Shown here one piece after another: positions 8,422 through 61,713 of a stretch of 64,000 nucleotides of DNA. The position numbers were made by a program, and so were the translations under genes. Position 1 is the first letter of the stretch. Each line of letters opens with the position of its first letter. Origin of the DNA: Sphingomonas sp. (GTDB lineage: Bacteria; Pseudomonadota; Alphaproteobacteria; Sphingomonadales; Sphingomonadaceae); contig NZ_JAFKMA010000002.1 in assembly GCF_017304635.1 (NCBI RefSeq), forward strand, positions 391,244 to 455,243. The letters run 5' to 3'. The notes under the pieces are model-generated. The model was given only the letters and a program-made list of their open reading frames with translations. It made no database searches and was not told the origin of the DNA.

Positions 8422-10545
8422 ATGACGTTCCGCCGAGTTCTGACCGCCGCCGCGCTGGGATGCGCGGCGATCGGCAGTGCCCATGCCCAGACCAGCGAAG
8501 ACAATCGCGCCGCCGACGCGCTGGCCGCCGACATGCGGCTGCTCGCCGCCAACCCGCTCGACATCGAGGCGCTGGTCACGGCCGGCGAACTGACGCTGAA
8601 GCTGGGCGATCCGACCGCCGCCGCCGGTTTCTTTACGCGCGCGGAAAAGCTCGATCCGAACAATCCACGGGTCAAGGCGGGGTGGGGCAGCCTGATGGTC
8701 CGCGCCGAACGCCCGGGCGAAGCGCTGCGCCGGTTCCAAGAGGCCGAGGCGCGCGGGCTCGACCCGGCGCGCTATGCCGCTGACCGCGGCCTCGCCTATG
8801 ATCTGGTCGGGCAGCAGGAGCGCGCGCAACGCGATTATCGGCTGGTGCTGCGGAACGGTGTCGATGATGAAGTGACGCGGCGTTACGCACTGTCGCTCGC
8901 TATTTCGGGGCGGAAGGACGAGGCGCTGAAGCTGCTCGACCCGCTGTTGCTGCGCAGCGATCGCGCGGCGTGGCGCAGCCGCGCGTTCGTGCTGGCGATG
9001 ACCGGCGACACGGCGGGCGCGGAGAAGATCGCGCAGACGATGATGTCGCCGGGGCTGGGCGCAGGGCTGGCGCCGTTCTTCCGTCGCCTGCCGCAACTGT
9101 CCGCCGCCGATCGTGCCTTCGCGGTCAATTTTGGCGAGCTTGCGGAGACGCCGGCGCGGGTCGCCGATGCGCGGCTGGTCCCGGCCTTGCCGACGCTCGG
9201 ACCCGATCCCTATGCGCCGAAGCCGGTGGTCGCGGCGCTGCCGGCACCGGTGATGGTCGCCGACACCGGCAACAAGCGCGACAAACGACGCCGGCGCAAC
9301 GAAGCGCCCGTCGCGGTTGCTCGCGCGCCCGCGCCCTCGCCGACACCGACGCCGACACCTGCTCCAACGGCCGTCGCGATGGTGCCGCCTCCTTCCGCCG
9401 CGCCGCGCATGACCACGGTGCCGCCGCGCGTCGCTGTCGCGCCTGTTACGACGCCGCCAAGCGCCCCGATCGTCGCCGTCGCCGTTCCGATTCGGACCCT
9501 GTCGACCCCGGCTCCGACGCCGACACCGGTTCGCTCGGCACCGACGATAGCAGCGTCGTCGACCGTGCCGCCGGTGATCGTCCGGCCAACCCCCACTCCT
9601 GTCCCGACCTCGCCGGTCTCGACGGCGAGCCCGGCGACGATCGCTCGCGTTGCCGCGGCCGAGCCGACTCCACCCGTCGTCGTCCCGGCCGCGCCGGTCG
9701 CCACGCCGGAGCCGCCCCAACGCGGCGTCGCCGATCAGCCGAGCGCGGCGGAAGCCGGCGTTCCCGCGCCGACCGTCGTCGCGCGCGCCAGCGAGGACAG
9801 CGTGCTCGCCCGGATCGTCGCCAACACCGTCGCGACGCCGGCACCGGCGCCGCGTCCCGCGCCCACTCCCGTTCAGATCGCCAAGGCCGAACCGAAGCCC
9901 GCTGCCACCAAGGCACCGACGAAATCGACTCGCACGCGTGCCGGCAAGGACGAGACGGCGACCACCGACGCGCCCGTGACGACCGCGCGGACCAAGCGCG
10001 GTCGCGATCTCGCCGCGGCGATCCCGGACGACAGCGGCGTGCCGACCCGCGATGCGCGCGGCCGCCCGATCAAGGTCGCGGTCGCCGACGACGTGCCCGC
10101 GCTCGACAAGAACGGCTGCCCGCTGCCGCCGACCCCGACCAAGAGCAGGACGTCGGGCAAGCGCGGCGCGACGGCCGCCGCCGCTCGCAAGGTGCCGTTG
10201 TCGGCGAAGTGCAAGGCGCTCGCCGCTGCGGCGGCCGAAAAGGCGAAGGCCGATGCCGAGGCGAAGAGCTCGCCGGCGCGTGTCTGGGTCCAGGTCGCGG
10301 GCGGTGCCAACGAGGCAAGTCTCGAAAAAGCGTGGCAGATCATGCGCGACCGCGCGCCGGCCCTGTTGCGCGGGCGGCAGGGCTGGACGACGCCGCTGCG
10401 CGCCACCAACCGCGTGCTGACCGGTCCGTTTAACGATACGGATGAGGCGCAGAGCTTCGTGAACAAGCTGACCAAGGCCGGCGTCCCCGCCTTCGTCTTC
10501 ACCAGCACCAAGGGCCAGAAGGTCGAGAAGCTGAGCGGGAAGTAG
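8422..10545 (+). CDS. Secreted SPOR-domain protein with TPR region
   Basis: 707 residues. The N-terminus is a signal peptide ending AHAQ (cut after about residue 23). Residues ~25-220 are Ala/Leu-rich helical repeats of the tetratricopeptide type, e.g. GELTLKLGDPTAAAGFFTRA and KLDPNNPRVKAGWGSLM. The middle ~300 residues are a low-complexity Pro/Thr/Ala/Lys linker. The last ~80 residues (RVWVQVAGGANEASLEKAWQ to FVFTSTKGQKV) are a SPOR domain, which binds glycan strands lacking stem peptides at the septum. A periplasmic cell-wall or division role is inferred from the SPOR domain and proximity to ftsZ. The linker length is likely variable. Confidence 0.85.
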   Translation: MTFRRVLTAAALGCAAIGSAHAQTSEDNRAADALAADMRLLAANPLDIEALVTAGELTLKLGDPTAAAGFFTRAEKLDPNNPRVKAGWGSLMVRAERPGEALRRFQEAEARGLDPARYAADRGLAYDLVGQQERAQRDYRLVLRNGVDDEVTRRYALSLAISGRKDEALKLLDPLLLRSDRAAWRSRAFVLAMTGDTAGAEKIAQTMMSPGLGAGLAPFFRRLPQLSAADRAFAVNFGELAETPARVADARLVPALPTLGPDPYAPKPVVAALPAPVMVADTGNKRDKRRRRNEAPVAVARAPAPSPTPTPTPAPTAVAMVPPPSAAPRMTTVPPRVAVAPVTTPPSAPIVAVAVPIRTLSTPAPTPTPVRSAPTIAASSTVPPVIVRPTPTPVPTSPVSTASPATIARVAAAEPTPPVVVPAAPVATPEPPQRGVADQPSAAEAGVPAPTVVARASEDSVLARIVANTVATPAPAPRPAPTPVQIAKAEPKPAATKAPTKSTRTRAGKDETATTDAPVTTARTKRGRDLAAAIPDDSGVPTRDARGRPIKVAVADDVPALDKNGCPLPPTPTKSRTSGKRGATAAAARKVPLSAKCKALAAAAAEKAKADAEAKSSPARVWVQVAGGANEASLEKAWQIMRDRAPALLRGRQGWTTPLRATNRVLTGPFNDTDEAQSFVNKLTKAGVPAFVFTSTKGQKVEKLSGK

Positions 10546-50810: not shown

Positions 50811-50900
<90 letters not shown>

Positions 50901-51082
50901 TTTCTTGTACCGCAGCGGTTCGTAACAGACCACTGTAGTCGACTTTTTCTCTCTGAAATCTGACACTTGCTCGATCAGCTCGGCCATGGCCGTTCGCACC
51001 CGTTCGCACCCATTCGGCGAATCGGCGGTGCTCATGCGTGGTACGCGCGGTCAAAATACATGGTACTTTCGGGAGAAAGACA

Positions 51083-52432
51083 TTGCTGACCGATACGAAG
51101 GCGCGGACCGCGAAGCCGCGCGACAAAGCTTATAAACTCACCGACTCAAACTGCCTCTACCTCCTCGTCACGCCAAGCGGCGGCAAACTTTGGCGCTGGA
51201 ACTACAAATACGAAGGCAAGCAGAAGGCCATGGCTTTCGGGAGCTATCCGACGGTGGGGCTGACCGATGCCCGGTTCAAGCGAGACGAGGCACATGCGCT
51301 TTGGGTTGAGGGCCATGATCCCGGCGTCGTGAAGAAGTTGCGGATCGAGGAAAATCTCGAAGCGGGCCGGCGAACCTTCGAACGTACAGCGCGCCTTTGG
51401 CACGACAATGCCAAGTCGCAGTGGGCAAAGCGTCACGCCAACGACATTCTGCGCAGTCTCGAACGAGACGTGTTTCCAGAAATCGGTGCATTGCCAATCG
51501 CTCAGCTTACACCTCCGCTGATCCTCGCAGCGTTGCGCGAGGTTGAAGCGCGTGGGTCGATCGAGACGGCGAAGCGGATCCGGCAGCGAATCGAGGCCGT
51601 TTTCGATTACGCCATTGCCGAGGGGTTCGCGGACAAGAACCCTGCCGAGAGGTTGGGGGCGGTCCTAAAGCCGCTGCGTCGCGGCAGACAGCCCGCGATC
51701 ACTGATCTCGTGCCGCTGCAAAAGATGATCCTCGCGGCGGAAGAGGATTTCGCCCGGCCGGTTACGCGACTTGGACTGCGCCTGCTGGCCCTGACGTCAG
51801 TTCGCCCTAATGAGTTACGCGGGGCGTGTTGGTACGAGTTCGAGGAGCTGAATGGCAAGGAACCGCTCTGGCGGATTCCGGCCGCGCGAATGAAGGGCGA
51901 TCTTGATCGCAAGGAAGAAGCCGACGGCGACCATCTCGTCCCCTTGACGCCGCAGGCGGTGGACGTCCTGCGAGCGCTTTGGCCGCTGACGGGGGAGGGG
52001 GATCTGTTGTTTCCCAGTTGCCGCAAGCCAGATCGGCCGATGAGCGAAAACGCGATCGGCTTTCTTCTTCACCGCGCCGGGTATCACGGCCATCATGTCC
52101 CCCACGGTTTTCGCGCCGCTTTCTCGACGATCATGAACGAATGGGCCGAACGCAAAGGCAAGGAGGGCGATCGCGCGATTATCGATCTGATGCTCGCGCA
52201 CGTGCCTAGGGAGAAGGTGGAGGGTGCCTATAACCGCGCGCGCTACATGCCACGCCGGCGTGAGCTAGCCGGGATCTGGGCCGACATGCTGACCGAGGGT
52301 ATGCCGTCGCCGATGGTCCTCGTGCAGAGGCCCACGCGACCGCTCGGTCCAAGCCCGCGCCGGTTCAGGCCTCTACCCGTCGAAGCTGCGTTCCGCTTTC
52401 CGACAAGAGTCGTGCGGCGCAGCGCTGAATGA
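51083..52432 (+). CDS. int: P4-type tyrosine integrase
   Basis: 449 residues. N-terminal DUF4102-type arm-binding domain (LTDTKARTAKPRDKAYKLTD; LYLLVTPSGGKLWRWNYKYE), core-binding SAM-like domain, and catalytic domain with R (TSVRPNELRGACW), HGFR (HHVPHGFRAAFS) and the Tyr nucleophile (VEGAYNRARY). The start is taken as TTG at 51083, giving the family's usual MLTDTK beginning after GGGAG; an in-frame upstream start at 51038 is less likely. Integrates islands into tRNA genes, consistent with tRNA-Ser next door. Confidence 0.92.
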   Translation: MLTDTKARTAKPRDKAYKLTDSNCLYLLVTPSGGKLWRWNYKYEGKQKAMAFGSYPTVGLTDARFKRDEAHALWVEGHDPGVVKKLRIEENLEAGRRTFERTARLWHDNAKSQWAKRHANDILRSLERDVFPEIGALPIAQLTPPLILAALREVEARGSIETAKRIRQRIEAVFDYAIAEGFADKNPAERLGAVLKPLRRGRQPAITDLVPLQKMILAAEEDFARPVTRLGLRLLALTSVRPNELRGACWYEFEELNGKEPLWRIPAARMKGDLDRKEEADGDHLVPLTPQAVDVLRALWPLTGEGDLLFPSCRKPDRPMSENAIGFLLHRAGYHGHHVPHGFRAAFSTIMNEWAERKGKEGDRAIIDLMLAHVPREKVEGAYNRARYMPRRRELAGIWADMLTEGMPSPMVLVQRPTRPLGPSPRRFRPLPVEAAFRFPTRVVRRSAE

Positions 52433-52518
52433 ATGTGCTAGGTGCGCCGTGTCCACTGGGCGCGGCGTTCAAGCGCGTCGATTAAGCTTTCTGTCCAGGG
52501 TTTGCGCGGAGGCTAGCC

Positions 52519-53070
52519 TTGGGCGGCCGCTACGCGGTGACAACGGTATCGCGTCCGCGCGACGTGGACCGGATCGTCGCCGGACGTTTTGAGGATACAA
52601 ACCGCCTCTTCGTTCCACCGCAGCATTATGACGTTCGAGTGGATGCCGACGGAACGCCCGAGGTATGGGCAGAGCATATCGCTGCGCTGCTTGCGCCGAC
52701 GTTCGACCCGAAGCGGCCGACCGCGCTTTTCGTGGGCCGTTACCAGCCATTCCACGATGGCCATCGTGCGCTGGTCTTCAAAGATCTCCAGCGCGTCGGG
52801 CAAGCGTGCATAACGGTCCGCAATACGGAAGGCACATCGCCCAGTGATCCATTTGGCTTCGAGTATGTGAAGGCTCGCATTGAGACCGACCTCCGCGACT
52901 ATGCAGGCCGCTTCATCGTTGTCCAACTTCCAAACATTGCTGCAATATTCTACGGCCGCGACGCAGGATACCAGGTTGAGCAACCAAGTGTTGATGCTAA
53001 TATCGCCGCTCTGTCGGCTACAGAAGTAAGGCGACAGATGCGGCTTCAAACAGCCGTGCCGTCGACGTGA
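52519..53070 (+). CDS. Nucleotidyltransferase of the HxGH family (NMNAT-like), possibly a truncated two-domain protein
   Basis: 183 residues. The second half is a nucleotidyltransferase: ALFVGRYQPFHDGHRALVF (HxGH motif) and a C-terminal LSATEVRRQM like the ISxTxxR of NMN adenylyltransferases. The first ~60 residues (DTNRLFVPPQHYDVRV, EVWAEHIAALL) look like the end of an adenylylsulfate-kinase-type domain whose P-loop part is absent. It may be a remnant or a naturally short protein. The TTG start with GGAGG 6 nt upstream argues that it is expressed. Substrate unknown. Confidence 0.65.
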   Translation: MGGRYAVTTVSRPRDVDRIVAGRFEDTNRLFVPPQHYDVRVDADGTPEVWAEHIAALLAPTFDPKRPTALFVGRYQPFHDGHRALVFKDLQRVGQACITVRNTEGTSPSDPFGFEYVKARIETDLRDYAGRFIVVQLPNIAAIFYGRDAGYQVEQPSVDANIAALSATEVRRQMRLQTAVPST

Positions 53071-53451
53071 GATCAACCCGACAGGCGGCAGTATCGAATA
53101 TTCTACATTCCGAATATAGGGAAAGACTTGATATTTAAACGCGACGCAGCTTGCGCTAGAAGACGAAAATCCTGCAATATTGACGAATTATCTTCACTGT
53201 GCGCTCATATGTGCCGACGTTGTCAGCTGTCTATACTAATACCGTTGTGGAAATCAACTACCTAATCGAGGCCGCAACCACCGAGTGTGGCTCTATTGAA
53301 AGTACCTGCTCCAAGCGCACGGCGCACTGGACGGCGCGCCTTCAACTGTTTCTTTACCGTGCCACGTTAGCAGCGTAGGTGATCATGGTCGAGCTTCGTC
53401 CGGCCGGCAAATCCGCTCTGCGAGATTTGCGCAACTGCCAGATGCGGTCGC
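53071..53451. other. Non-coding stretch, AT-richer
   Basis: 381 bp with no convincing gene. The part next to the MucR-like gene holds GCAAATC (53407-53413) and GATTTGC (53424-53430), an inverted repeat that may end that transcript. The left part (GAATATTC...GAATATA) is AT-rich and may contain a promoter, but I cannot define one. Confidence 0.5.
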
Positions 53452-53895
53452 TCACTTCGTCTTAGACTTCAGGGTTTGGCCCGGCTTGCGACCGAGACCA
53501 ATCTTTTTCGCCATAGCGCGTCGCGTCTCGCTGTAGGTCGGTGCAACCATTGGATAATCGACTTTGAGATTGTAGCGCTCACGATATTGGTCAGGTGTGA
53601 GGCCGTGCGTGGATAGATGGCGGCGCAACGTACGATATGGCTTGCCGTCGATCAGACTGATGATGTGGTCACGGGATGCCAGCGACTTGCGGACGCTAAC
53701 GACCGGCTCGTAGATCGGAGTGCCGCCGACTTCCGCCGCGTCGGCCGACGCCATGGGCGTGATGGCGCCTTGCATCGACTTAAAGAACGCTAGGGCGTCG
53801 TCAGCGCTGGCTCGCGTGTTCGGGTTCGCCAGCCATGCAGCGGTCAGCTCCGCGGCGATTTCGATTATGTCAGTGGAGGAGGTATCTTCGGTCAT
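53452..53895 (-). CDS. MucR/Ros-family regulator without zinc-finger cysteines
   Basis: 147 residues. The C-terminal half follows Ros/MucR closely: DGKPYRTLRRHLSTHGLTPD, YRERYNLKVDYPMVAPTYSE, AMAKKIGLGRKPG. In the usual zinc finger the motif reads ICLEDG with cysteine; here it is ISLIDG and the protein has no cysteine at all, while the two His (RRHLSTHG) remain. Some natural MucR relatives also lack Cys, so DNA binding is still plausible. The start at 53895 follows GGGGA. Island location suggests control of island or surface genes. Confidence 0.85.
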   Translation of the reverse strand: MTEDTSSTDIIEIAAELTAAWLANPNTRASADDALAFFKSMQGAITPMASADAAEVGGTPIYEPVVSVRKSLASRDHIISLIDGKPYRTLRRHLSTHGLTPDQYRERYNLKVDYPMVAPTYSETRRAMAKKIGLGRKPGQTLKSKTK

Positions 53896-54351
53896 TGTTG
53901 GCAATCCCCAGAAATGCGCCAGAGCCAAAGCTGATTATGGCCGGGCCGTCAACGACCATTTGTGTCAGTAGAACCGGCTTGCTTTACGATGGACCCTCCA
54001 ACCAGATGCTACAACCGGATTGTTTTGCCACCACGCCGATGGTGGTGCGATCACTCGATGTACTTCTTGAGCTTGTTGCTTTGAGGAAGCGGCGAAAAAG
54101 TTATGCGCCGATCGGTTGCGAAGTAGGGGCGGTACTGTTGGTCTTGGTCGTGCGGAAGTGAATTATTAGGATTGAAGTAAGCTTCACCCAAGTAGAATCA
54201 CAAACTGCGGATACGCGAAAAGTAAAATACGAAACTTTCGGCAAAAATAAAAGTTTATCTCGCTAAGCTGGCATTAAGTGCTTGCTGAGCTAGATAATCC
54301 ATTCATCACGCTTAAATAACGCATCTTACGCTGTACACGAAAGGACCATTA
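53896..54351. other. Low-GC non-coding stretch
   Basis: 456 bp, among the most AT-rich of the window, especially 54160-54350. Short open frames here have no ribosome binding site or family character. It likely holds promoters for the flanking genes. Confidence 0.5.
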
Positions 54352-54603
54352 CTAGTGATCAGGAATCGAGGAATCAGAAACAATAGAATTAACTGAGCGT
54401 AAGCCGGCCAAGCAAGCCTGATATCGCATCGCGGCTAGTGATGTTGGATTGGCATTGGCAAAGATGGAGAGTATCTCGTCGTCTTGCGCGTCCCTCGCCT
54501 TACCCGCAGTTGTGGTGGAGAAGGTGTTAGGCGACGTTAGGGCATCATTGGTCAACTGCACAATGGCCACTGCTTTGGACAGAGATTGATGATAGGCAGA
54601 CAC
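54352..54603 (-). CDS. Small hypothetical protein (83 aa) at the edge of the RiPP locus
   Basis: 83 residues, GTG start with AAGGAG 9 nt upstream. Sequence begins MSAYHQSLSKAVAIVQLTND and ends SIVSDSSIPDH, with one cysteine; no membrane segment, no family recognised. It is rich in Ser/Thr/Asn/Ala. Its start overlaps the divergent nucleotidyltransferase-like gene by 15 bp, so one of the two starts may be wrong. A second small substrate peptide for the locus is possible but unsupported. Confidence 0.4.
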   Translation of the reverse strand: MSAYHQSLSKAVAIVQLTNDALTSPNTFSTTTAGKARDAQDDEILSIFANANPTSLAAMRYQACLAGLRSVNSIVSDSSIPDH

Positions 54604-55443
54604 TGCGATGAGCTCCTTGGCAGGGATCCGGCCGTTCTCGCGGCTCAGATCGATCGTGAATTGAGTGAATTGTATCCTAACCGGAACTTTTCGGCGTACC
54701 TACACGGTTCGAGCGTTGCAATTGACGACTGGGCGCTAGTACCTCCTGCAGATGTCGATCTGTTTGTAATGGTCCCTCGCCTCGATGCAAAGTTGTTTGA
54801 CGATATCCGACGCCGTTTCTCCGCGCTCGAAGTCCGAACGTTGCGCATGGTGCCAATCTTTGATGTCGGGCCAGTGGTTTACCCTACGGCAACAGCGCCG
54901 TCTCAACTCGCTCTTCAGGTCCAGATCGTAATTGGGCAGGAAATGCTTTCGCCGTTGACCCAAGATAGCCTGCAGCGCGGCGGGTCCTTGATCGGCGGCA
55001 ACGTGCTGAATGCAGAAAACCGACCATTGTCTCTTAGTTCGATCCAGCGTTGGCTCGGTTGGGATCTGATATTTGCCAGAGCGGTGACCTTAGACAAAAC
55101 AGCCTTTTTCTGGCGCTGGGTGTCGGATCAAGCGCCGCGTCGGGCCTTCCATCTCATTTCGCTGAGCGAGCCTCGTGCCCGCCAAAAGGCAACCGCATAC
55201 GCCGCTCGTCGGTTGCTGGAATGGAGCTTCGTCCTGCAACCGGTATTGGGCTCAAATGGTCGGCACGTCCCGCCTCCAACAGCGCTGGTTGACCTCGCCA
55301 TGGCGTGTCAGAGTCCAGATGAATTTGAGCGGGTCTGGGCTGAGAGCGATCAGCTCGAGGGCATTGTCGACGCCTGCCTCAGCGAAAACCGAGCGCTTTG
55401 GGCATGCATACGATCTATCGGACGAAGGCACTATTCACGATAG
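54589..55443 (+). CDS. Nucleotidyltransferase-fold protein in the RiPP locus
   Basis: 284 residues. The segment AYLHGSSVAIDDW (G40-S41), followed by ADVDLFVMV (D55 and D57), is the GS...DxD metal/nucleotide site of the polymerase-beta-type nucleotidyltransferase fold; a helical C-terminal half follows. It might nucleotidylate a peptide, a sugar or a small molecule. Its 3' end overlaps the 3' end of the kinase/lyase gene by 9 bp, tying it to the locus. No close family recognised. Start 54589 (ATG) preferred over TTG 54586. Confidence 0.6.
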   Translation: MIGRHCDELLGRDPAVLAAQIDRELSELYPNRNFSAYLHGSSVAIDDWALVPPADVDLFVMVPRLDAKLFDDIRRRFSALEVRTLRMVPIFDVGPVVYPTATAPSQLALQVQIVIGQEMLSPLTQDSLQRGGSLIGGNVLNAENRPLSLSSIQRWLGWDLIFARAVTLDKTAFFWRWVSDQAPRRAFHLISLSEPRARQKATAYAARRLLEWSFVLQPVLGSNGRHVPPPTALVDLAMACQSPDEFERVWAESDQLEGIVDACLSENRALWACIRSIGRRHYSR

Positions 55444-56757
55444 TTGGGCTGCAGCGAGACACGTGCCGACGCTTTCAGGGTTGAGGGCGAACAGTTCTCG
55501 CTTCATCGCTTCGACAGCCCATGCCTCAATGTCATCCGCTGAATCGAAGGACAGCAAAAACGCAGGTAGGTCGATCACTCGATCGGACTCGCTAAAGCTG
55601 TCTCTCAATTCCCGGTGCAGCACGGAGTATAGAAAATGAACCCGCTCGCGTGTAGCGACGTCGCTGATGGTCGGGTTTGCGAAATGATAGGTCCGAATCG
55701 AATCGAACGCCGCAGTCACCATCTCGCCGGCGCTTTCGAAATCTATTGCAAGTACTTCCCCGTTGCCGCTAGCCAAAAAGTTGGCAAGCTTGGGATCGCC
55801 GACGTACAATTTGGCGGCATGAATATGAGCGAGAATATGAAGCGCGCTCTCAAGATGTTCTATCGTGAGTTTGCCGCTTCTCTTGAGATGGAACAAACTC
55901 GTTCCATCGACGCGATCCAGTATCATGACATTGCGATCTTCGTATTCGTGAAACGCGTGCATGGCGGGAGCGACGTGCTGTAGATTGTGAACATGCAATA
56001 GCCTGAAAAACTGGTGCTCCGTCCGCAACAGGTCCATACCGTCGCGACCATCGGGTAGCGTCATTCCGCACCGGTATCCGACTTTGAGCACACGCTCGGT
56101 GCACGTCTCGCTCGACATGTCGAGCGCCGCAAATACCCCGCCTTTGCCGCCATGGCTCATAACCTCGTATATCGGAAAGCCGGCAAGAAGTTGATCGAAC
56201 GCGGTTCGATCAGGCGGAGCCTCCAGAAACGGGAGAAATGGGTCCTGCAATTCCGCGCGGATCCACTGCGCAGCCCGTGATCTGTCATCCTCGATTTGAC
56301 GGTTGCCGACGTTAAGCGTCGTGCCGTGAAAACTGCCAAACCGATACGATAGGGGGTAGCCGCCGCCCATCTCGATCGCAAACGGAGGTTTGGGGGAGGT
56401 GTAGCGAAACGGGCTAAGCGCCCCTTTCAATTGCATCACTAAGTCATCACTTACTTGATCGGCTCTCAGGTAGGCGACGATGACCTTTCCGACTTGCGAC
56501 AACCCATACAACCCAGCGTTCATCTTTCTCAGGGCCTTGTCCGTCGCGACATATTTGTAGCTGATGTTGTGCCGCTCAAATATGGGTGACACCGCTTGAA
56601 GCGTCCCGACAAAATGTGGCCGACTTGCCGAGATATAGAGCTTCCAGCCCTGCGCTTCGACGGGATCGACGCCGACGAAATGCCACTTCCCGTCAGTAAT
56701 GAGCGCCGCTCCTGGCGGTGGTGGAATGACGATCGATGTGTAGCGGTCCGAGAGCAC
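55435..56757 (-). CDS. Class III lanthipeptide-synthetase-like lyase/kinase, no cyclase domain
   Basis: 440 residues. Residues ~20-150 match the N-terminal region of LanKC enzymes: QGWKLYISASRPHFVGTLQA, SYKYVATDKAL, GKVIVAYLRAD, FRY...PLSYRFGSF. Residues ~195-400 are a Ser/Thr-kinase-like domain with Gly-rich loop (SHGGKGGVF), VLK (K225), GDPKLANFL (D321, N326) and IDFE (D339) in place of DFG. LanKC enzymes continue with a LanC-like cyclase of ~400 residues; this protein ends after the kinase. Such enzymes phosphorylate Ser/Thr and eliminate phosphate. GTG start with GGAGG just upstream; follows the precursor gene by 76 bp. Confidence 0.78.
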   Translation of the reverse strand: MLSDRYTSIVIPPPPGAALITDGKWHFVGVDPVEAQGWKLYISASRPHFVGTLQAVSPIFERHNISYKYVATDKALRKMNAGLYGLSQVGKVIVAYLRADQVSDDLVMQLKGALSPFRYTSPKPPFAIEMGGGYPLSYRFGSFHGTTLNVGNRQIEDDRSRAAQWIRAELQDPFLPFLEAPPDRTAFDQLLAGFPIYEVMSHGGKGGVFAALDMSSETCTERVLKVGYRCGMTLPDGRDGMDLLRTEHQFFRLLHVHNLQHVAPAMHAFHEYEDRNVMILDRVDGTSLFHLKRSGKLTIEHLESALHILAHIHAAKLYVGDPKLANFLASGNGEVLAIDFESAGEMVTAAFDSIRTYHFANPTISDVATRERVHFLYSVLHRELRDSFSESDRVIDLPAFLLSFDSADDIEAWAVEAMKRELFALNPESVGTCLAAAQLS

Positions 56758-56833
56758 CTATGCCTCCAGCGAAATAGCGATATGCCAGCGCATCTTGTGA
56801 ACACGCCGGCACATCAGGATAGGTCACGGATGA

Positions 56834-57124
56834 TTAGTAGGCGCTTGTCGGGATAAAGATTGTGGTTAGCGTGATCGTCAGCCATGTTGACATTTCTTCG
56901 CTGGCTTCGGTCGGCTGAGCCGCAGCGAGATCGGTGCTGTTGGTGATAAAGCCGACGAGAGCTTCAGCGCGCTCGTCATCGCTCACCTTCCCGCGCAATG
57001 CCTCGCGAAGCGCTGTGTAACGCGCGGGGTCAGCTCTGATCTCGCTGATTGTCTCAAGTGCCCGGGCGCGCTCGCCTGCGCGTTCTTCAGCAGACAGCTC
57101 TTGAAGCGCTGACAGTTTTGCCAT
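56834..57124 (-). CDS. Candidate RiPP precursor peptide, Cys-free
   Basis: 96 residues. The first ~70 form a charged helical leader (ELSAEERAGERARALETISE; SDDERAEALVGFITNSTDLA). The tail, STWLTITLTTIFIPTSAY (79-96), is short, hydrophobic and contains six Thr, two Ser, three Ile and no Cys, the look of a core peptide. GGGA lies ~8 nt upstream of the ATG. It is the first gene of a minus-strand unit with the LanKC-like enzyme and is divergent from the radical SAM gene. No Cys anywhere in the peptide, so no lanthionine can form. The leader/core boundary is a guess. Confidence 0.72.
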   Translation of the reverse strand: MAKLSALQELSAEERAGERARALETISEIRADPARYTALREALRGKVSDDERAEALVGFITNSTDLAAAQPTEASEEMSTWLTITLTTIFIPTSAY

Positions 57125-57456
57125 TTCCGGTTCCCTTTCGATAAGTGGCGTGTCATCTTGTCCAATCGCTCTGATCGTTAAACTGCGGCGATCGGCGGGT
57201 AGATAGTGCCATTGTTGCGTATCAAAGCAATTCGGCCAGCACAGAAAATAGGGTCCGATATGAAGGTAAAAGCACGTGGATTTGAAGGGAACATCCATTC
57301 AAAACTGCGCCAATTCCGGAGCAAATAACTCTTAAACTTTCGCGGAGGGTGACCATACTCCTATGCTTGCTGGGGCACAGGGCTTCGCCGGTCGGAAGAT
57401 GCCACGCCACCTGCATCGGGCAGCGAGTTTGGCAAATAGCTCCGGGAGTTTGAACG
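57125..57456. other. Divergent control region of the RiPP locus
   Basis: 332 bp between the precursor (-) and radical SAM (+) starts. No gene is visible. It must hold promoters for both operons. GGGAG precedes the radical SAM GTG, and a segment near 57330-57360 (TTAAAC...CATACT) is a weak promoter-like candidate. Confidence 0.5.
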
Positions 57457-59382
57457 GTGATCGACAACACAAATCACAGTCGCGCGACGCCTGGTCCCGT
57501 CGCGCTGGTCAGCATGCCGTGGTTCTGGTCCTACATGCCATCCATTCAGCTGGCCATTATCAAGCGGTGCTTAAATGACCTCGGGGTGGAATCGAATGTC
57601 TTCGAATTCTATGCCGACTTCGTCAAGCTTACCGGGCAGGCGTTATATACGACGATAGCCAATAGCGAGCCATACTTGGCGGACGGCCTTTTTACACAAG
57701 ACTATTACGGAGATCGGCGTGAGGCTGAGCCCGGAATGAGCCAGTGCTCCTCCCTCAGCTTGGTCGATGTCGAGTCCGAACTGCGTTTACTCTTTCCGCC
57801 CGTGATCGATCGCTTCCTCGACGCTTGTCTGGCGGATACGGATTGGAGTCAGTTTCGCGCGATCTGCTTTTCGCTGACGGCGCAACAGACCGGTGCCTCG
57901 ATGGCGCTAGCAAAAAGGATTAAGGAGCACTGCCCTGATCAATTCATCGTCGTGGGAGGAGCGGCATGTCACGGTGAGATGGGTGCAGCGCTCCTCGAAT
58001 TATGTCCCGAGTTCGATGTTGCGGTACAGGGTGAAGCCGAGCACGTGCTGCCTGAGCTTATTCGTGCCCTTGACGGCCAAATGTCTTGGGCAGAAGTGTC
58101 AGGCGTTAGCTGGCGAGACGTCCATGGCGAGGTTCGGCGCAATTCCTCGACCAAGCTTCATCAGTTGCGTATCCCGCGGAGCGCGCTGAATTTCGACGCC
58201 TACTTTGATCGCATTCGTCGGACTGGGGCGCTGCAGCTGAAGCAAGTTTGGATCCCGTTCGAGAGTAGCCGCGGTTGCTGGTACGGTGAAAAAACGCAGT
58301 GCACGTTCTGTGGGCTAAACGAAATTATTCAGTATCGCGAGCGGGACAATGGGGGTCTTTTAGCCGAGCTTGAAAGTTATGAGCGTCGCTATGCCGTAAC
58401 GAGTTTTTTTGCGGTTGACCTCATCATGCCGCGAAGTTTCTTTAAAGGGTTCCTTCCCGACCTGGAGAAAGCGGGCAAGGATTGGAAAATATTCTACGAG
58501 GTCAAGTCGAACATGCGTAGAGAGGAGATCGCACTGTTATCGCGATCTGGGGTGACGTGGATCCAGCCCGGTATAGAGAGCCTCGATGATGACGTGCTGG
58601 CCCTCATGCGAAAAGGAGTGAAGGCGGCGCATAACGTGCAGACGCTACGCTTATCGCTCGAGGGAAACGTGGCGGTAAGCTGGAATATCATTTTCGGGTT
58701 CCCGGGAGAGAAACCGGAAAGTTACTTTTCGATGGCGGCGCTATTCCCAAGCCTTCACCACCTTGACCCGCCAGGTGGCCTAGGGGTGTTCGAGGTTCAC
58801 CGGTTCAGCCCGTTTCACGACTCCCCGGAGGCGCTCGGTATTGTCGTAAAGGGCCCTCATCCCAAGTATCGTTCAGTTTTTCCGGTCGACGAGAAATTGC
58901 TGAACAGGCTGGTCTACCGTTTCGAATTTGATTTTATCCAGGCGCCGGGCGCAGATTTGGCGCGAGCACATGCGGCGGTCTCAGGAGCCGTCGTTGCGTG
59001 GCAGGACGCGCGGCGACGCGGCGCGGCATTTGAGGCGATAGAATTGAGCAGCGGTGAAATGCTTTTGAAGGACTCACGTCATACATCCAGTGCCGTGACG
59101 ACAAGATTGAGTGCTCACCAATCAGTGTTGCTTGGGTATTTGTTAGAGATGCGAGCAGAAGCTAGGTTGGAAGCCGAATTTGAACGGTTTGCACCATCGG
59201 CATATCGCGCTCTCGGTGGTCGTGAAGGGCTGCCGAGACTGCTCGATCGCTGGGAGCGCGATGGCATTGTCCTGAAATTGTCGGGCTACGTGCAGGGGCT
59301 CCCGACACTCCAATCAGCGTCGGTTCCTGACGAGTTCTTGTCCCGTTCCCGACCGGCGCCGGTCGAAGAGATCGCCGCTTGA
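57457..59382 (+). CDS. RiPP-maturation radical SAM enzyme (B12-binding-type N-terminus)
   Basis: 641 residues. N-terminus VALVSMPWFWSYMPSIQLAI and a Rossmann-like region (ICFSLTAQQTGASMALAKRI; FIVVGGAACHGEMGAALLEL; DVAVQGEAEHVLPELI) look like a cobalamin-binding domain. The SAM cluster motif is C274-x7-C282-x2-C285 within RGCWYGEKTQCTFCGLN, the variant typical of 'RiPP maturation radical SAM protein 1' (TIGR03975, from memory). GIESLDDDVLALMRKGV and FPGEKPESY belong to the radical SAM barrel. A C-terminal ~170-residue region follows. GTG start after GGGAG. Probably modifies the neighbouring precursor, for example by C-methylation. Confidence 0.88.
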   Translation: MIDNTNHSRATPGPVALVSMPWFWSYMPSIQLAIIKRCLNDLGVESNVFEFYADFVKLTGQALYTTIANSEPYLADGLFTQDYYGDRREAEPGMSQCSSLSLVDVESELRLLFPPVIDRFLDACLADTDWSQFRAICFSLTAQQTGASMALAKRIKEHCPDQFIVVGGAACHGEMGAALLELCPEFDVAVQGEAEHVLPELIRALDGQMSWAEVSGVSWRDVHGEVRRNSSTKLHQLRIPRSALNFDAYFDRIRRTGALQLKQVWIPFESSRGCWYGEKTQCTFCGLNEIIQYRERDNGGLLAELESYERRYAVTSFFAVDLIMPRSFFKGFLPDLEKAGKDWKIFYEVKSNMRREEIALLSRSGVTWIQPGIESLDDDVLALMRKGVKAAHNVQTLRLSLEGNVAVSWNIIFGFPGEKPESYFSMAALFPSLHHLDPPGGLGVFEVHRFSPFHDSPEALGIVVKGPHPKYRSVFPVDEKLLNRLVYRFEFDFIQAPGADLARAHAAVSGAVVAWQDARRRGAAFEAIELSSGEMLLKDSRHTSSAVTTRLSAHQSVLLGYLLEMRAEARLEAEFERFAPSAYRALGGREGLPRLLDRWERDGIVLKLSGYVQGLPTLQSASVPDEFLSRSRPAPVEEIAA

Positions 59383-59401
59383 TCGCTCATCCGCATCAAG
59401 C

Positions 59402-60433
59402 ATGCTTTCTTCTAACGTGAGCGGAAAGGTTTTCGTGCCGCCGACGCCGACCTCCCCGTCGCGCGTTGATCGGGCGATCGTCGGCGCGATCCTTCGGGAA
59501 GCCCTCACGATTCCCGTAACAATGGCAGTGTGCTTGGTCGTTTTGCTCGGTACCCTCGCTTGGGGCATCGGCACCGTTAGGCGCTTAGGCAGTGATCGGG
59601 CGGCTCTAACCGCGGCTCTCCTCGTGTCGCTTATGGCAACTGTCGTGCACATTTCATGGCGTAGGAGACTGATTGCGCTGCAGGGAGACGGACTTTGTGT
59701 GCCAGGTGCCCGGGCACCGGGAGCGTCGCTTCGCTATGTCGGATCCTACCATGTTGCAGGCTTAGTCGGCACGACGCTGTTAGTATCGACGGTTACGTTG
59801 GACGGCGAAGGTCTCGCGATCTCGGCTTATCTCGGCAGCGTCGCAATTGTTGAGCTGGCTTGGCTGATGCTGCATGCCATTCGACGGGCAAGAGGCGATG
59901 GCGTATGGCGTAAGACATACAGCAGATTTCGCCTACGATCAGGCGGGTTAGCGTGGCGGGTCATCATTCCGGGTGTGGCAGGAGTGAGCGTGCTTACTTT
60001 GGCTGTCGCTCATAACAATGCTATGCGAGCGTTCGCCGGTTTTGTCGTATTCGTCGGCTTGATTGCTATCACGCCGGTCAGCGTCAAACTTGTCAATTTC
60101 GAGCGCCAGACTGGTCATGGAGCACGCGCTATTGTTGGCCGGCGCCTTGCCGCAGGGTTTTGTCTTGGTGTGGTCTTGAGCCCCTGCATCTTGGTGGACC
60201 GACCCGGCGCGATGGTGCTGTACGCCCTATGGGCTGGGGTGATGCTATATCGATGCTGCGAAACCCTAACCTCAATCGTTTTCCCCAAGCCTGTGACCGG
60301 CTTCGCTCTCGCAGCCGAAATCCTGCTGGTAGGCGTCGTTGCGGCCCTGTTTCTGCCGCTTGCGCCAATCGCATACGGATGCGTTACCTGGTATCTCGCT
60401 CGACGGGCCAACAAAAAGCGTTGGATGTTATGA
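59402..60433 (+). CDS. Polytopic membrane protein, ABC exporter permease partner
   Basis: 343 residues with about eight hydrophobic helices (e.g. TMAVCLVVLLGTLAWGIG; AALTAALLVSLMATVVHISW; FVVFVGLIAITPVSV; GFALAAEILLVGVVAALFLP). No recognisable permease family motif. The ATG at 59402 lies 19 bp after the radical SAM stop, and the stop overlaps the start of an ABC ATPase (ATGA), so it is the likely membrane half of that transporter. Probable role: export of the mature peptide, or self-protection. Confidence 0.7.
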   Translation: MLSSNVSGKVFVPPTPTSPSRVDRAIVGAILREALTIPVTMAVCLVVLLGTLAWGIGTVRRLGSDRAALTAALLVSLMATVVHISWRRRLIALQGDGLCVPGARAPGASLRYVGSYHVAGLVGTTLLVSTVTLDGEGLAISAYLGSVAIVELAWLMLHAIRRARGDGVWRKTYSRFRLRSGGLAWRVIIPGVAGVSVLTLAVAHNNAMRAFAGFVVFVGLIAITPVSVKLVNFERQTGHGARAIVGRRLAAGFCLGVVLSPCILVDRPGAMVLYALWAGVMLYRCCETLTSIVFPKPVTGFALAAEILLVGVVAALFLPLAPIAYGCVTWYLARRANKKRWML

Positions 60434-61140
60434 GCCGCATCGACATTCGTAAGGTCAGCGTGGTTCGAGGCGGAACGCCGGTCGTTCACCGCGCGACATT
60501 CGGTGTCGCAGCCAGTACTTGGTTCGGCGTGATCGGTGCAAACGGTTCTGGCAAGACCTCGTTGCTTCGTGCAATCGCCGGACGTCTCGACATTGCCGAG
60601 GGTGAATGTGCAATTGCCGGCACAGAGTTGTCGACCGATCGGTTCCGACGCGCGCAATGCATCGGCTTCATGCCAACTATTGAATCGCTACCGACCGTGC
60701 TGACTGGAAGGCAGATTCTTCGATTGGCGGCGCCGCGAGGATCTGACGGCCTGCATTCCCTGGGTCCCATCAACGCGGCGCTGCACATTGGCGCGCTCTT
60801 GGATCAGCCGGTCGCCCATTTCTCGTCGGGCATGCGTCAGCGACTAGCCATTGCTTGCGCATTCGCGTCGGGTGCCTCTGCGATCATCCTTGACGAACCA
60901 TTCAACTGGCTTGATCCAGTTGCCGCCTTTGACACCCGTACGGCTTTGGCGGCGATGGTCGCTGCCGGACTGACCCTCGTAACGGCGCTCCATGACATGT
61001 CGGTGTTTGCGCGGTGTTGCCACGCCGGTATCGTAATGAGCGATGGTGCCGTCGCCCTAAGCTTGTCCGACAGCGACCTGCGCCACGGCCAGCAGGATCC
61101 TGCTGCCTTTGAGGATCGCCTGATTGCTGCGCTGCGGTAA
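60430..61140 (+). CDS. ABC transporter ATP-binding protein of the RiPP locus
   Basis: 236 residues. Walker A GANGSGKTSLLRAIAG, a Q-loop-region stretch GFMPTIESLPTVLTG in which the expected Gln is not obvious, signature FSSGMRQRLAIACAFASG, Walker B ASAIILDEPFNWLDP, and H-loop TALHDMSV. Translation is coupled to the membrane protein by a 4-bp overlap. Drives export or immunity. A C-terminal ~40-residue tail is not typical. Confidence 0.88.
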   Translation: MSRIDIRKVSVVRGGTPVVHRATFGVAASTWFGVIGANGSGKTSLLRAIAGRLDIAEGECAIAGTELSTDRFRRAQCIGFMPTIESLPTVLTGRQILRLAAPRGSDGLHSLGPINAALHIGALLDQPVAHFSSGMRQRLAIACAFASGASAIILDEPFNWLDPVAAFDTRTALAAMVAAGLTLVTALHDMSVFARCCHAGIVMSDGAVALSLSDSDLRHGQQDPAAFEDRLIAALR

Positions 61141-61164
61141 GATGGCCGGTGGCTCGGCACCAGG

Positions 61165-61713
61165 TCAGCCGCGTGGGCTGAACAGTCCATTTTGATCCGA
61201 CATGTGATGATCACCTCGTCGCGCATCACCGATGGCGGTTAGCCGCTGCGCGGTGCTGGCCCAAGTTTCCAAGAGGCTGAGGCCCCGATCTGACAGGGCC
61301 ACGTGTGACCGACGGCGGTCCTCGGCGTCTTCTCGCCGCTTCACCAAACCTTCTCGTTCCAACGCTGCCAAATGTCGCAAAGCGGTGCTGGGCGCGGCGG
61401 CGGCGGCGGCGCAAGCACTTGTCACGGACACTACCGCCCCGCACGCTCGAGCGACGTAAAGATCAAGGAGCAGATCCCACGCTGGCTCGCCGAAGAGCTT
61501 GGCATGGCCTCCAAACACCGACTCCCGGCTGCGGCGTGCCCGGTAGATCGCTCGGATGTACCCGACCCGGCTGTCGCTGTTGACGTCGTCGGCGCCAGTC
61601 GAAAGTGTCGGATTTTGGCAAGCTGAAGCGCCGCATCCGTGCCATTCGACCAACAACGCCTGGATATCATCAAGAAATTGCGGAGCGGTCCGCGACCGGG
61701 CGTTATCGTTCAT
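61165..61713 (-). CDS. MarR-type winged-helix regulator
   Basis: 182 residues. After an ~55-residue N-terminal extension comes FGEPAWDLLLDLYVARACGA, then the winged helix (APSTALRHLAALEREGLVKR; DRRRSHVALSDRGLSLLE), as in sphingomonad MarR-like proteins. It is convergent with the ABC genes and the last gene of a minus-strand run. It may control the RiPP locus, but no operator was identified. Confidence 0.8.
   Translation of the reverse strand: MNDNARSRTAPQFLDDIQALLVEWHGCGASACQNPTLSTGADDVNSDSRVGYIRAIYRARRSRESVFGGHAKLFGEPAWDLLLDLYVARACGAVVSVTSACAAAAAAPSTALRHLAALEREGLVKRREDAEDRRRSHVALSDRGLSLLETWASTAQRLTAIGDARRGDHHMSDQNGLFSPRG

Follow-up and report, generated by a model that had tools for sequence, protein, structure and literature searches.

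The stretch analysed here, 64,000 nucleotides of a 3.18 Mb Sphingomonas-like genome (G000:C1:391244-455243, hereafter the window), carries a probable locus for a ribosomally synthesised and post-translationally modified peptide (RiPP) with a maturase derived from the class III lanthipeptide synthetases (LanKCs), which we class apart from the lanthipeptide loci (Table 1). A Cys-free precursor gene and the gene of a LanKC-like lyase-kinase without a LanC cyclase domain, termed K, lie on the minus strand with a spacing of 76 bases, and the K gene has a GTG start with GGAGG upstream. Facing them across a divergent intergenic region are genes for a radical S-adenosylmethionine (SAM) enzyme, a membrane protein and an ATP-binding cassette (ABC) ATPase, and a small protein termed X is encoded on the same strand as K.

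Table 1. Features of the window and precursor-like genes of related loci (L numbers), with strands where assigned (aa, amino acids).
Feature	Position	Strand	Remark
Precursor peptide, 96 aa, Cys-free	56834..57124	-	Orthologue in L016
Predicted core STWLTITLTTIFIPTSAY	56837..56890	-	Core boundary inferred
K: LanKC-like lyase-kinase, 440 aa, without LanC domain	55435..56757	-	
Probable B12-type radical SAM C-methyltransferase, TIGR03975, C-x7-C-x2-C	57457..59382	+	
Membrane protein, presumed ABC permease	59402..60433	+	8 hydrophobic segments
ABC transporter ATPase	60430..61140	+	ABC_tran match
X: small predicted helical protein, 83 aa	54352..54603	-	Counterpart of L016:1361-1606
Divergent intergenic control region	57125..57456	none	
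Hypothetical 285-aa protein	54586..55443	+	Initially called nucleotidyltransferase-like; membership doubtful
MarR-like winged-helix regulator	61165..61713	-	HTH_27 match; membership doubtful
tRNA-Ser	50811-50900		Upstream of locus
Tyrosine integrase	51038-52432		Upstream of locus
Thr-run/DTTAF peptides	L018:7281-7601; L024:5964-6302; L035:7510-7857; L032:7593-7823; L057:7541-7915; L004:8074-8358 and 8470-8745		Directly upstream of K-like gene
Acidobacteriota tail-Cys peptides without Thr runs	L017:7596-7922; L019:7407-7775; L020:1402-1731; L033:7370-7753; L037:331-699		

The window precursor contains no Cys, and its orthologue in Qipengyuania proteolytica (L016) is likewise Cys-free, so that the residues which lanthipeptide precursors require for thioether rings are missing from both. 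The two peptides, from different genera, share 44% identity (z 29, 0/2000 shuffles as good), and in the two-sequence alignment the core residues I84, T85, T87, T88, F90, I91, S94, A95 and Y96 are identical. The window precursor had no match in Pfam or NCBIfam, and neither precursor matched an NHLP or Nif11 leader model. An initial annotation of the window had described the gene as precursor-like and had named its absence or divergence in homologous loci as grounds for rejecting a RiPP locus; instead, the peptide with its Thr-bearing tail is conserved in the sole homologous locus found.

This second locus was retrieved from genome_contigs (84,980 species) with K, aligned to four of its relatives, as query. 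Matches fell in 466 stretches, 234 relatives among them, of which 80 were kept; L016 was by far the best match (40% identity, 1e-82). A first scan with K alone had yielded 27 pattern matches and zero relatives. In L016, a 2-oxoglutarate (2OG)-Fe(II) oxygenase gene, X, the radical SAM gene, the membrane protein gene, the ATPase gene, the precursor gene and K follow each other on a single strand, unlike the window, where X, K and the precursor gene lie on the strand opposite the other three. Identities between the window and L016 amount to 50% for the radical SAM enzyme, 48% for the ATPase, about 41% for K, 27% for X and 26% for the membrane protein. The X pair is the more weakly supported (local score z 8.3, 0/2000 shuffles as good; blastp E 0.003-0.006 against the open reading frames (ORFs) of five loci), and its fold model, helical and of low confidence (pLDDT 57.6), was too poor for a fold search. 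The membrane protein pair gave no blastp match at E 0.05, and its kinship therefore rests on place and hydropathy. Taken together, the peptide pair and the K, radical SAM and ATPase genes kept beside it point to conservation of the locus beyond chance. The oxygenase ORF of L016 (L016:348-1340; 2OG-FeII_Oxy_3, 35 bits) suggests a possible hydroxylation step there; no homologue was found among the window ORFs searched.

K was initially described as having the lyase-like and kinase domains of class III synthetases without LanC, which the profile searches bear out. The protein matches the lyase-type domain RamC_N (PF25816) at 54.8 bits (cut-off 27), covers only positions 24-404 of the 833 in the LanKC model NF038151 (89.2 bits against a cut-off of 575) and ends at 440 aa, without the C-terminal LanC-like cyclase domain. 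A LanC-like gene elsewhere, which the initial annotation had considered damaging to its proposal, did not appear: no LANC_like (PF05147) match exceeded the cut-off in the window genome (none at E 1) or in the Qipengyuania proteolytica genome (one, 11.1 bits against 23.2). A better alignment with non-RiPP kinases had been put forward as a further refutation; it does not hold for K on the whole, but the two halves of the protein part company here. At full length, LanKC ranks best in NCBIfam (2.2e-25, as against 5.6e-5 for Bud32). In a phmmer search of solved structures, two 871-aa chains named “protein kinase domain-containing” rank first, aligned over the lyase part, and are taken as LanKCs from their sequence; the third is the human S6 kinase 1vzo (1.1e-5, residues 193-361, the kinase part), and the named LanKCs come after it at 4e-4 to 1.4e-3 (ThurKC 8e-4 to 1.4e-3). 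The lyase half of K thus appears to side with LanKCs, while the kinase half is not clearly LanKC by sequence because S6 kinase outranks ThurKC. With an AlphaFold model of K (16 sequences, pLDDT 75.3, pTM 0.72), rows 1-21 of the Foldseek output are all class III LanKC entries, ahead of any other kinase, and CurKC kinase domains are among the first matches. Superposition on full-length LanKC entries is poor (root-mean-square deviation about 8-11), and the domain arrangement of K is therefore not established. K counts as LanKC-type more clearly by predicted fold than by sequence.

The lyase site sets K apart from its relatives. In ThurKC, the acid/base residues of the lyase are His67, Lys94 and Asp152, and the residues at the phosphate include Lys65, Lys117, Arg163 and Arg191 (PMC10604976). 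The H67A variant of this enzyme stops at intermediates that are dehydrated and phosphorylated, D152A forms at most five dehydroalanines or dehydrobutyrines, and K65A, K94A and R163A give no modification whatever (PMC10604976). These sites were located in K by aligning a relative to ThurKC with phmmer and by a family alignment of 83 K-like rows. At the His67, Lys94 and Asp152 sites, K has Tyr41, Lys68 and Ala127 and thus lacks the LanKC acid/base set. His occupies the first site in 80 of the 83 rows (Tyr in two, one gap), a tally that is biased because one of the two scan patterns permitted only His or Tyr there; the Asp152 site, part of neither pattern, holds Asp in 75 rows, Glu in six and Ala in two. 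At both sites the deviating rows are the window and L016 proteins, and none else among the 83. The other sites are close to invariant: Lys65 is Lys in 82 rows with one gap, and Lys94, Lys117, Arg163 and Arg191 are kept in 82, 83, 83 and 76 rows, respectively. The window and L016 proteins retain the equivalents of all five, together with the kinase residues K225, E247, D321, N326 and D339. The remaining 81 rows have 47 alignment columns with a uniformity of 90% or more; 28 of these are unchanged in the pair, the clamp, base and kinase residues included, and 19 are changed in one or both proteins. With two acid/base residues missing from the elimination site, dehydration by K cannot be assumed. 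Of the initial proposal, the RiPP-type locus, the cyclase-less LanKC-type enzyme, the PoyC-type radical SAM enzyme and the conserved Cys-free tail with its Thr residues are supported, and dehydration is withdrawn to a possibility.

The partner enzyme is more readily placed. The radical SAM protein, initially assigned to the RiPP-maturation group on its motif, scores 479.6 bits against TIGR03975 (cut-off 281.85; L016 orthologue 481.6) and carries the motif as C274-x7-C282-x2-C285; its match to the B12-binding domain PF02310 (24.6 bits) falls below the cut-off of 32.1. PoyC, which shares the C-x7-C-x2-C motif, C-beta-methylates Ile and Val (PMC11285071, review), and by its sequence the window protein is most likely a PoyC-type C-methyltransferase. 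TIGR03975-like ORFs also occur 3-4 kb from full LanKCs in Actinophytocola (L078:14668-16518) and Tengunoibacter (L094:13601-15757), with 35% and 32% identity to the window protein, respectively.

From these elements we propose, at close to an even chance, a RiPP pathway whose peptide stays uncyclised, its core threonines being phosphorylated with weak or no elimination and the core being C-methylated by the radical SAM enzyme. K would bind the precursor, and its kinase domain would phosphorylate T85, T87 and T88 of the core, perhaps also Ser94. At the lyase-type site, where the clamp and base lysine are kept and the acid/base His and Asp are lost, elimination would be slowed or absent, and the peptide would, like phospeptin, mainly retain phosphothreonine. 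The radical SAM enzyme would C-methylate the same core, likeliest at the beta-branched residues (Ile84, Leu/Val86, Ile/Val89, Ile91, or Thr), and the ABC pair would export a peptide without thioether rings. Phosphothreonine is placed slightly ahead of dehydrobutyrine because phosphorylated intermediates are seen with ThurKC H67A and K lacks both acid/base groups.

Several observations weigh against this proposal. The system is known from two loci only. The Pfam Pkinase match of K (22.9 bits) stays below the cut-off of 31.7, the kinase half fits S6 kinase by sequence as well as any LanKC, and in the column of residue 372, within the kinase part, an Asp with 99% uniformity among the other rows is Arg or Lys in the pair, a loss that suggests caution on kinase activity. 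In addition, the ThurKC H67A and D152A single mutants still dehydrate in part (PMC10604976), and with the base lysine and clamp retained and Tyr41 as a possible acid, elimination by K may persist. Conservation of K65, K94 and R163 neither proves nor excludes elimination, since the corresponding ThurKC alanine mutants gave no modification.

The strongest competitor, less probable but a serious contender, follows from these last points: K would phosphorylate and then eliminate, with Tyr41 or another group as acid, to give a linear C-methylated dehydrobutyrine peptide resembling polytheonamide. Dehydration comes close behind because of the retained base lysine and the possible acid, and the equivalents of Lys65, Lys94, Lys117, Arg163 and Arg191 are all retained. 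PoyF and PoyC set a precedent (PMC9505594), and LanC-free relatives that keep His and Asp or Glu adjoin Thr-run peptides, which makes uncyclised dehydration plausible for the wider group. Against it stands the replacement of both acid/base residues, identical in the two proteins and seen in no other of the 83 rows. It is improbable that the peptide meets another fate, by further change such as hydroxylation or crosslinking, or that K is a leader-binding partner with its catalysis lost; the L016 oxygenase and the missing kinase-part Asp would fit such outcomes, but the former found no counterpart among the window ORFs searched and the core kinase residues of K are intact. That K is a signalling kinase beside unrelated genes on a genomic island, as a rare locus in lower-GC DNA downstream of a tRNA-Ser and integrase and a kinase half akin to S6 kinase might suggest, is very improbable given the LanKC-type lyase domain and fold and the leader, core and partner genes conserved in another genus despite a different gene order.

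The phosphorylating pathway favoured here has relatives among described systems, and the initial statement that no described class has this combination was too strong, as phospeptin (PMC9259500) and polytheonamide (PMC9505594) both use cyclase-less LanM-type enzymes. Class III synthetases such as ThurKC, SalKC, PneKC and CuvL share with K an N-terminal RamC_N lyase-type domain and a Ser/Thr-kinase-like domain; unlike them, K has no LanC domain and has the His67 and Asp152 equivalents replaced, and the window adds a Cys-free precursor and a C-methyltransferase partner. Polytheonamide (PoyF, PoyB/PoyC) and other proteusins likewise pair a dehydratase that lacks a cyclase with a B12 radical SAM C-methyltransferase of the C-x7-C-x2-C type, and the LanM-type dehydratase domain PoyF acts with PoyC (PMC9505594, PMC11285071); however, PoyF is not LanKC-type, and the nitrile-hydratase-like leader by which proteusins are defined found no match in the window precursor. 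Phospeptin, a diphosphorylated, Cys-free linear peptide of “Ca. Eudoremicrobium malaspinii” (PMC9259500, PMC9505594), is made from EmbA by EmbM, which consists of a lanthipeptide dehydration domain alone with changed elimination residues, yields a poly-phosphorylated linear product (PMC9259500) and has neither a cyclase domain nor a Cys in its substrate (PMC9505594). It resembles the window system in its cyclase-less synthetase relative, Cys-free Thr substrate and altered elimination residues (PMC9259500, PMC9505594), and differs in that EmbM is LanM-type where K is LanKC-type, the leader is Nif11-like and EmbM is described as the sole maturase, leaving no radical SAM enzyme. By analogy, the window system resembles a hybrid of phospeptin and polytheonamide built on a LanKC-type enzyme. 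Two further systems were compared and rejected: dehydrazoles, in which a class III cyclase is joined to a LanM-type dehydration domain (PMC10676384), and noursin, which has a full LanKC (PMC10206099). In the open-access literature, which leaves outside most subscription papers, and without the paper that defines the class VI lanthipeptides (LanKCb of streptococci; He 2023, named in the review PMC12328550), we found neither a LanC-less LanKC-type enzyme with a radical SAM methyltransferase as partner nor any description of the LanC-free group. We tentatively suggest a new class of RiPPs: a LanKC-derived enzyme without its cyclase, with an elimination site rebuilt to Tyr and Ala, would leave phosphothreonines (or run another reaction there) on a Cys-free, strand-like core C-methylated by a PoyC-type enzyme.

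The system is rare. K was searched in overlapping genome sets of its family (397), genus (295), class (385) and order (396), and its orthologue was found in its own genome and in G1213, the L016 genome, only. The other K matches (two in the family, one in the genus, one in the class and six in the order set) comprise three full LanKCs that are not orthologues (G347, seen twice; G307; G576), a lone RamC_N-like domain (G699) and five kinase-part stretches in frames of 741-976 aa. Within Qipengyuania, one of 60 genomes has K, and the precursor profile was found in one of the 295 genus genomes, its own. Plasmids gave six records for K, none covering 80% of it, and the two inspected were a LanC-free Salipiger protein and a full Haematobacter LanKC; neither precursor matched a plasmid, and K matched nothing in viral_contigs. 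The radical SAM protein gave 86 plasmid records, and the system was seen in none of the four inspected: that from Paracoccus (L006) has a YcaO-like gene by reading of translations, those from Niallia and S. clavuligerus have no kinase in their listed genes, and that from Streptomyces NBC_01340 is unannotated. Among 100 relatives, 39 match the radical SAM profile at E 0.001, and besides the window gene itself values below 1e-70 occur only in G1077 (two) and G405 (one); the 14-kb stretches around these genes hold no K homologue.

The scan further revealed LanKC-like proteins without LanC. Across the K-like ORFs of the 80 loci, LanC was detected by profile in 53 and absent in 27; five of the latter are partial and one (L047, 668 aa) falls among the full ones, which leaves 21. 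As 45 of these rows also served to train the profile, its positive control is circular. A tree of 77 rows, omitting the partial L022, L045, L052, L058, L079 and L090 and tallying L047 as full though the profile shows no LanC, separates the 23 LanC-free rows, among them those of the window and Salipiger, from the others by a branch with support 99/99; they would form a clade only with a root placed among the others. Long branches (those of window K, L016 and L057 meet) and the deviating letter make-up of many rows qualify the tree, and the place of the window/L016 pair inside the group would rest on such branches. The LanC-free rows span Acidobacteriota, Verrucomicrobiota, Cyanobacteriota, Bacillota, Actinomycetota and Pseudomonadota, and no LanC was found in other ORFs of at least 60 aa in the 24 LanC-free stretches searched.

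Members of this group (Salipiger, Fictibacillus, a cyanobacterium, Kitasatospora, Propionibacteriales, Tateyamaria and others) resemble the window and L016 in lacking LanC, in their side of the tree and, in many, in a precursor-like peptide upstream; in contrast to that pair, they retain a lyase site with His and either Asp or Glu and have no TIGR03975-like ORF in the stretches searched. When 22 LanC-free loci were inspected for small genes rich in Ser/Thr codons, six had Thr-run or DTTAF-repeat peptides beside the K-like gene, with Cys in the tail in three of the six, and these peptides of six distant lineages are possible poly-dehydrobutyrine RiPPs. Rereading of 19 loci with a ribosome-site filter added eight with an upstream ORF of 104-127 aa (L017, L019, L020, L021, L029, L033, L037, L039). 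An alignment of five of them with the Thr-run peptides shows a common leader layout, and all five have a tail Cys; in the Acidobacteriota peptides of Table 1 this Cys is conserved and takes the place of Thr runs. The remaining LanC-free loci read gave no convincing peptide. Comparison of the window leader with those of the group is suggestive only, with a weak profile link (hhalign probability 36), and three of 11 group leaders match an NHLP-clan model, all under its cut-off. A 401-aa ORF in a 1.7 Mb alphaproteobacterial genome (L012:8867-10072) has a RamC_N-like stretch without kinase or LanC and adjoins, by reading, a subtilisin-like protease gene.

The remaining genes of the neighbourhood are less firmly tied to the locus. 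The ATPase of the supposed ABC exporter pair is well supported (ABC_tran, 71.1 bits), while the permease, without a match in Pfam or NCBIfam, is presumed from its place and a simple hydropathy count. The MarR regulator named initially proved to be a winged-helix protein (HTH_27 25.1 bits, cut-off 22.2) with a MarR score of 23.4, just below 24.6, and its membership of the locus is doubtful. The nucleotidyltransferase-like label of the 285-aa protein found no family support (no Pfam or PHROG match; best NCBIfam score 11.2 bits, E 0.17), and in blastp neither this protein nor the regulator has a homologue in L016. The control region has no sigma-70-like site and no Rfam match, and its RNA fold (z -1.48) is nothing notable. 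Upstream, at positions 50811-53928, the tRNA-Ser, the tyrosine integrase and a MucR/Ros regulator point to a likely genomic island, and the guanine-cytosine content falls from 64-67% at 47-50 kb to 51-59% at 54-61 kb of the window; no copy of the tRNA end of at least 14 bases, as expected of an attachment repeat, was found within 33 kb. A MucR-like ORF was also seen by reading in L120, about 22 kb further on. A 183-aa protein (52519-53070) has no Pfam match at E 0.01 and contains GRYQPFHDGH, which we take to be a nucleotidylyltransferase-like motif.

A large lanthipeptide survey starts from the LanC domain (Walker 2020, PMC7268733), and a survey of this kind would miss a LanC-free group for that reason. 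Without its cyclase, the kinase-lyase half of class III synthetases is found in several phyla and occupies a separate side of the tree, and in one lineage its elimination site is rebuilt and a radical SAM methyltransferase has become its partner. This raises the testable question of whether loss of the His and Asp turns a dehydratase into an enzyme that leaves a phosphorylated peptide.

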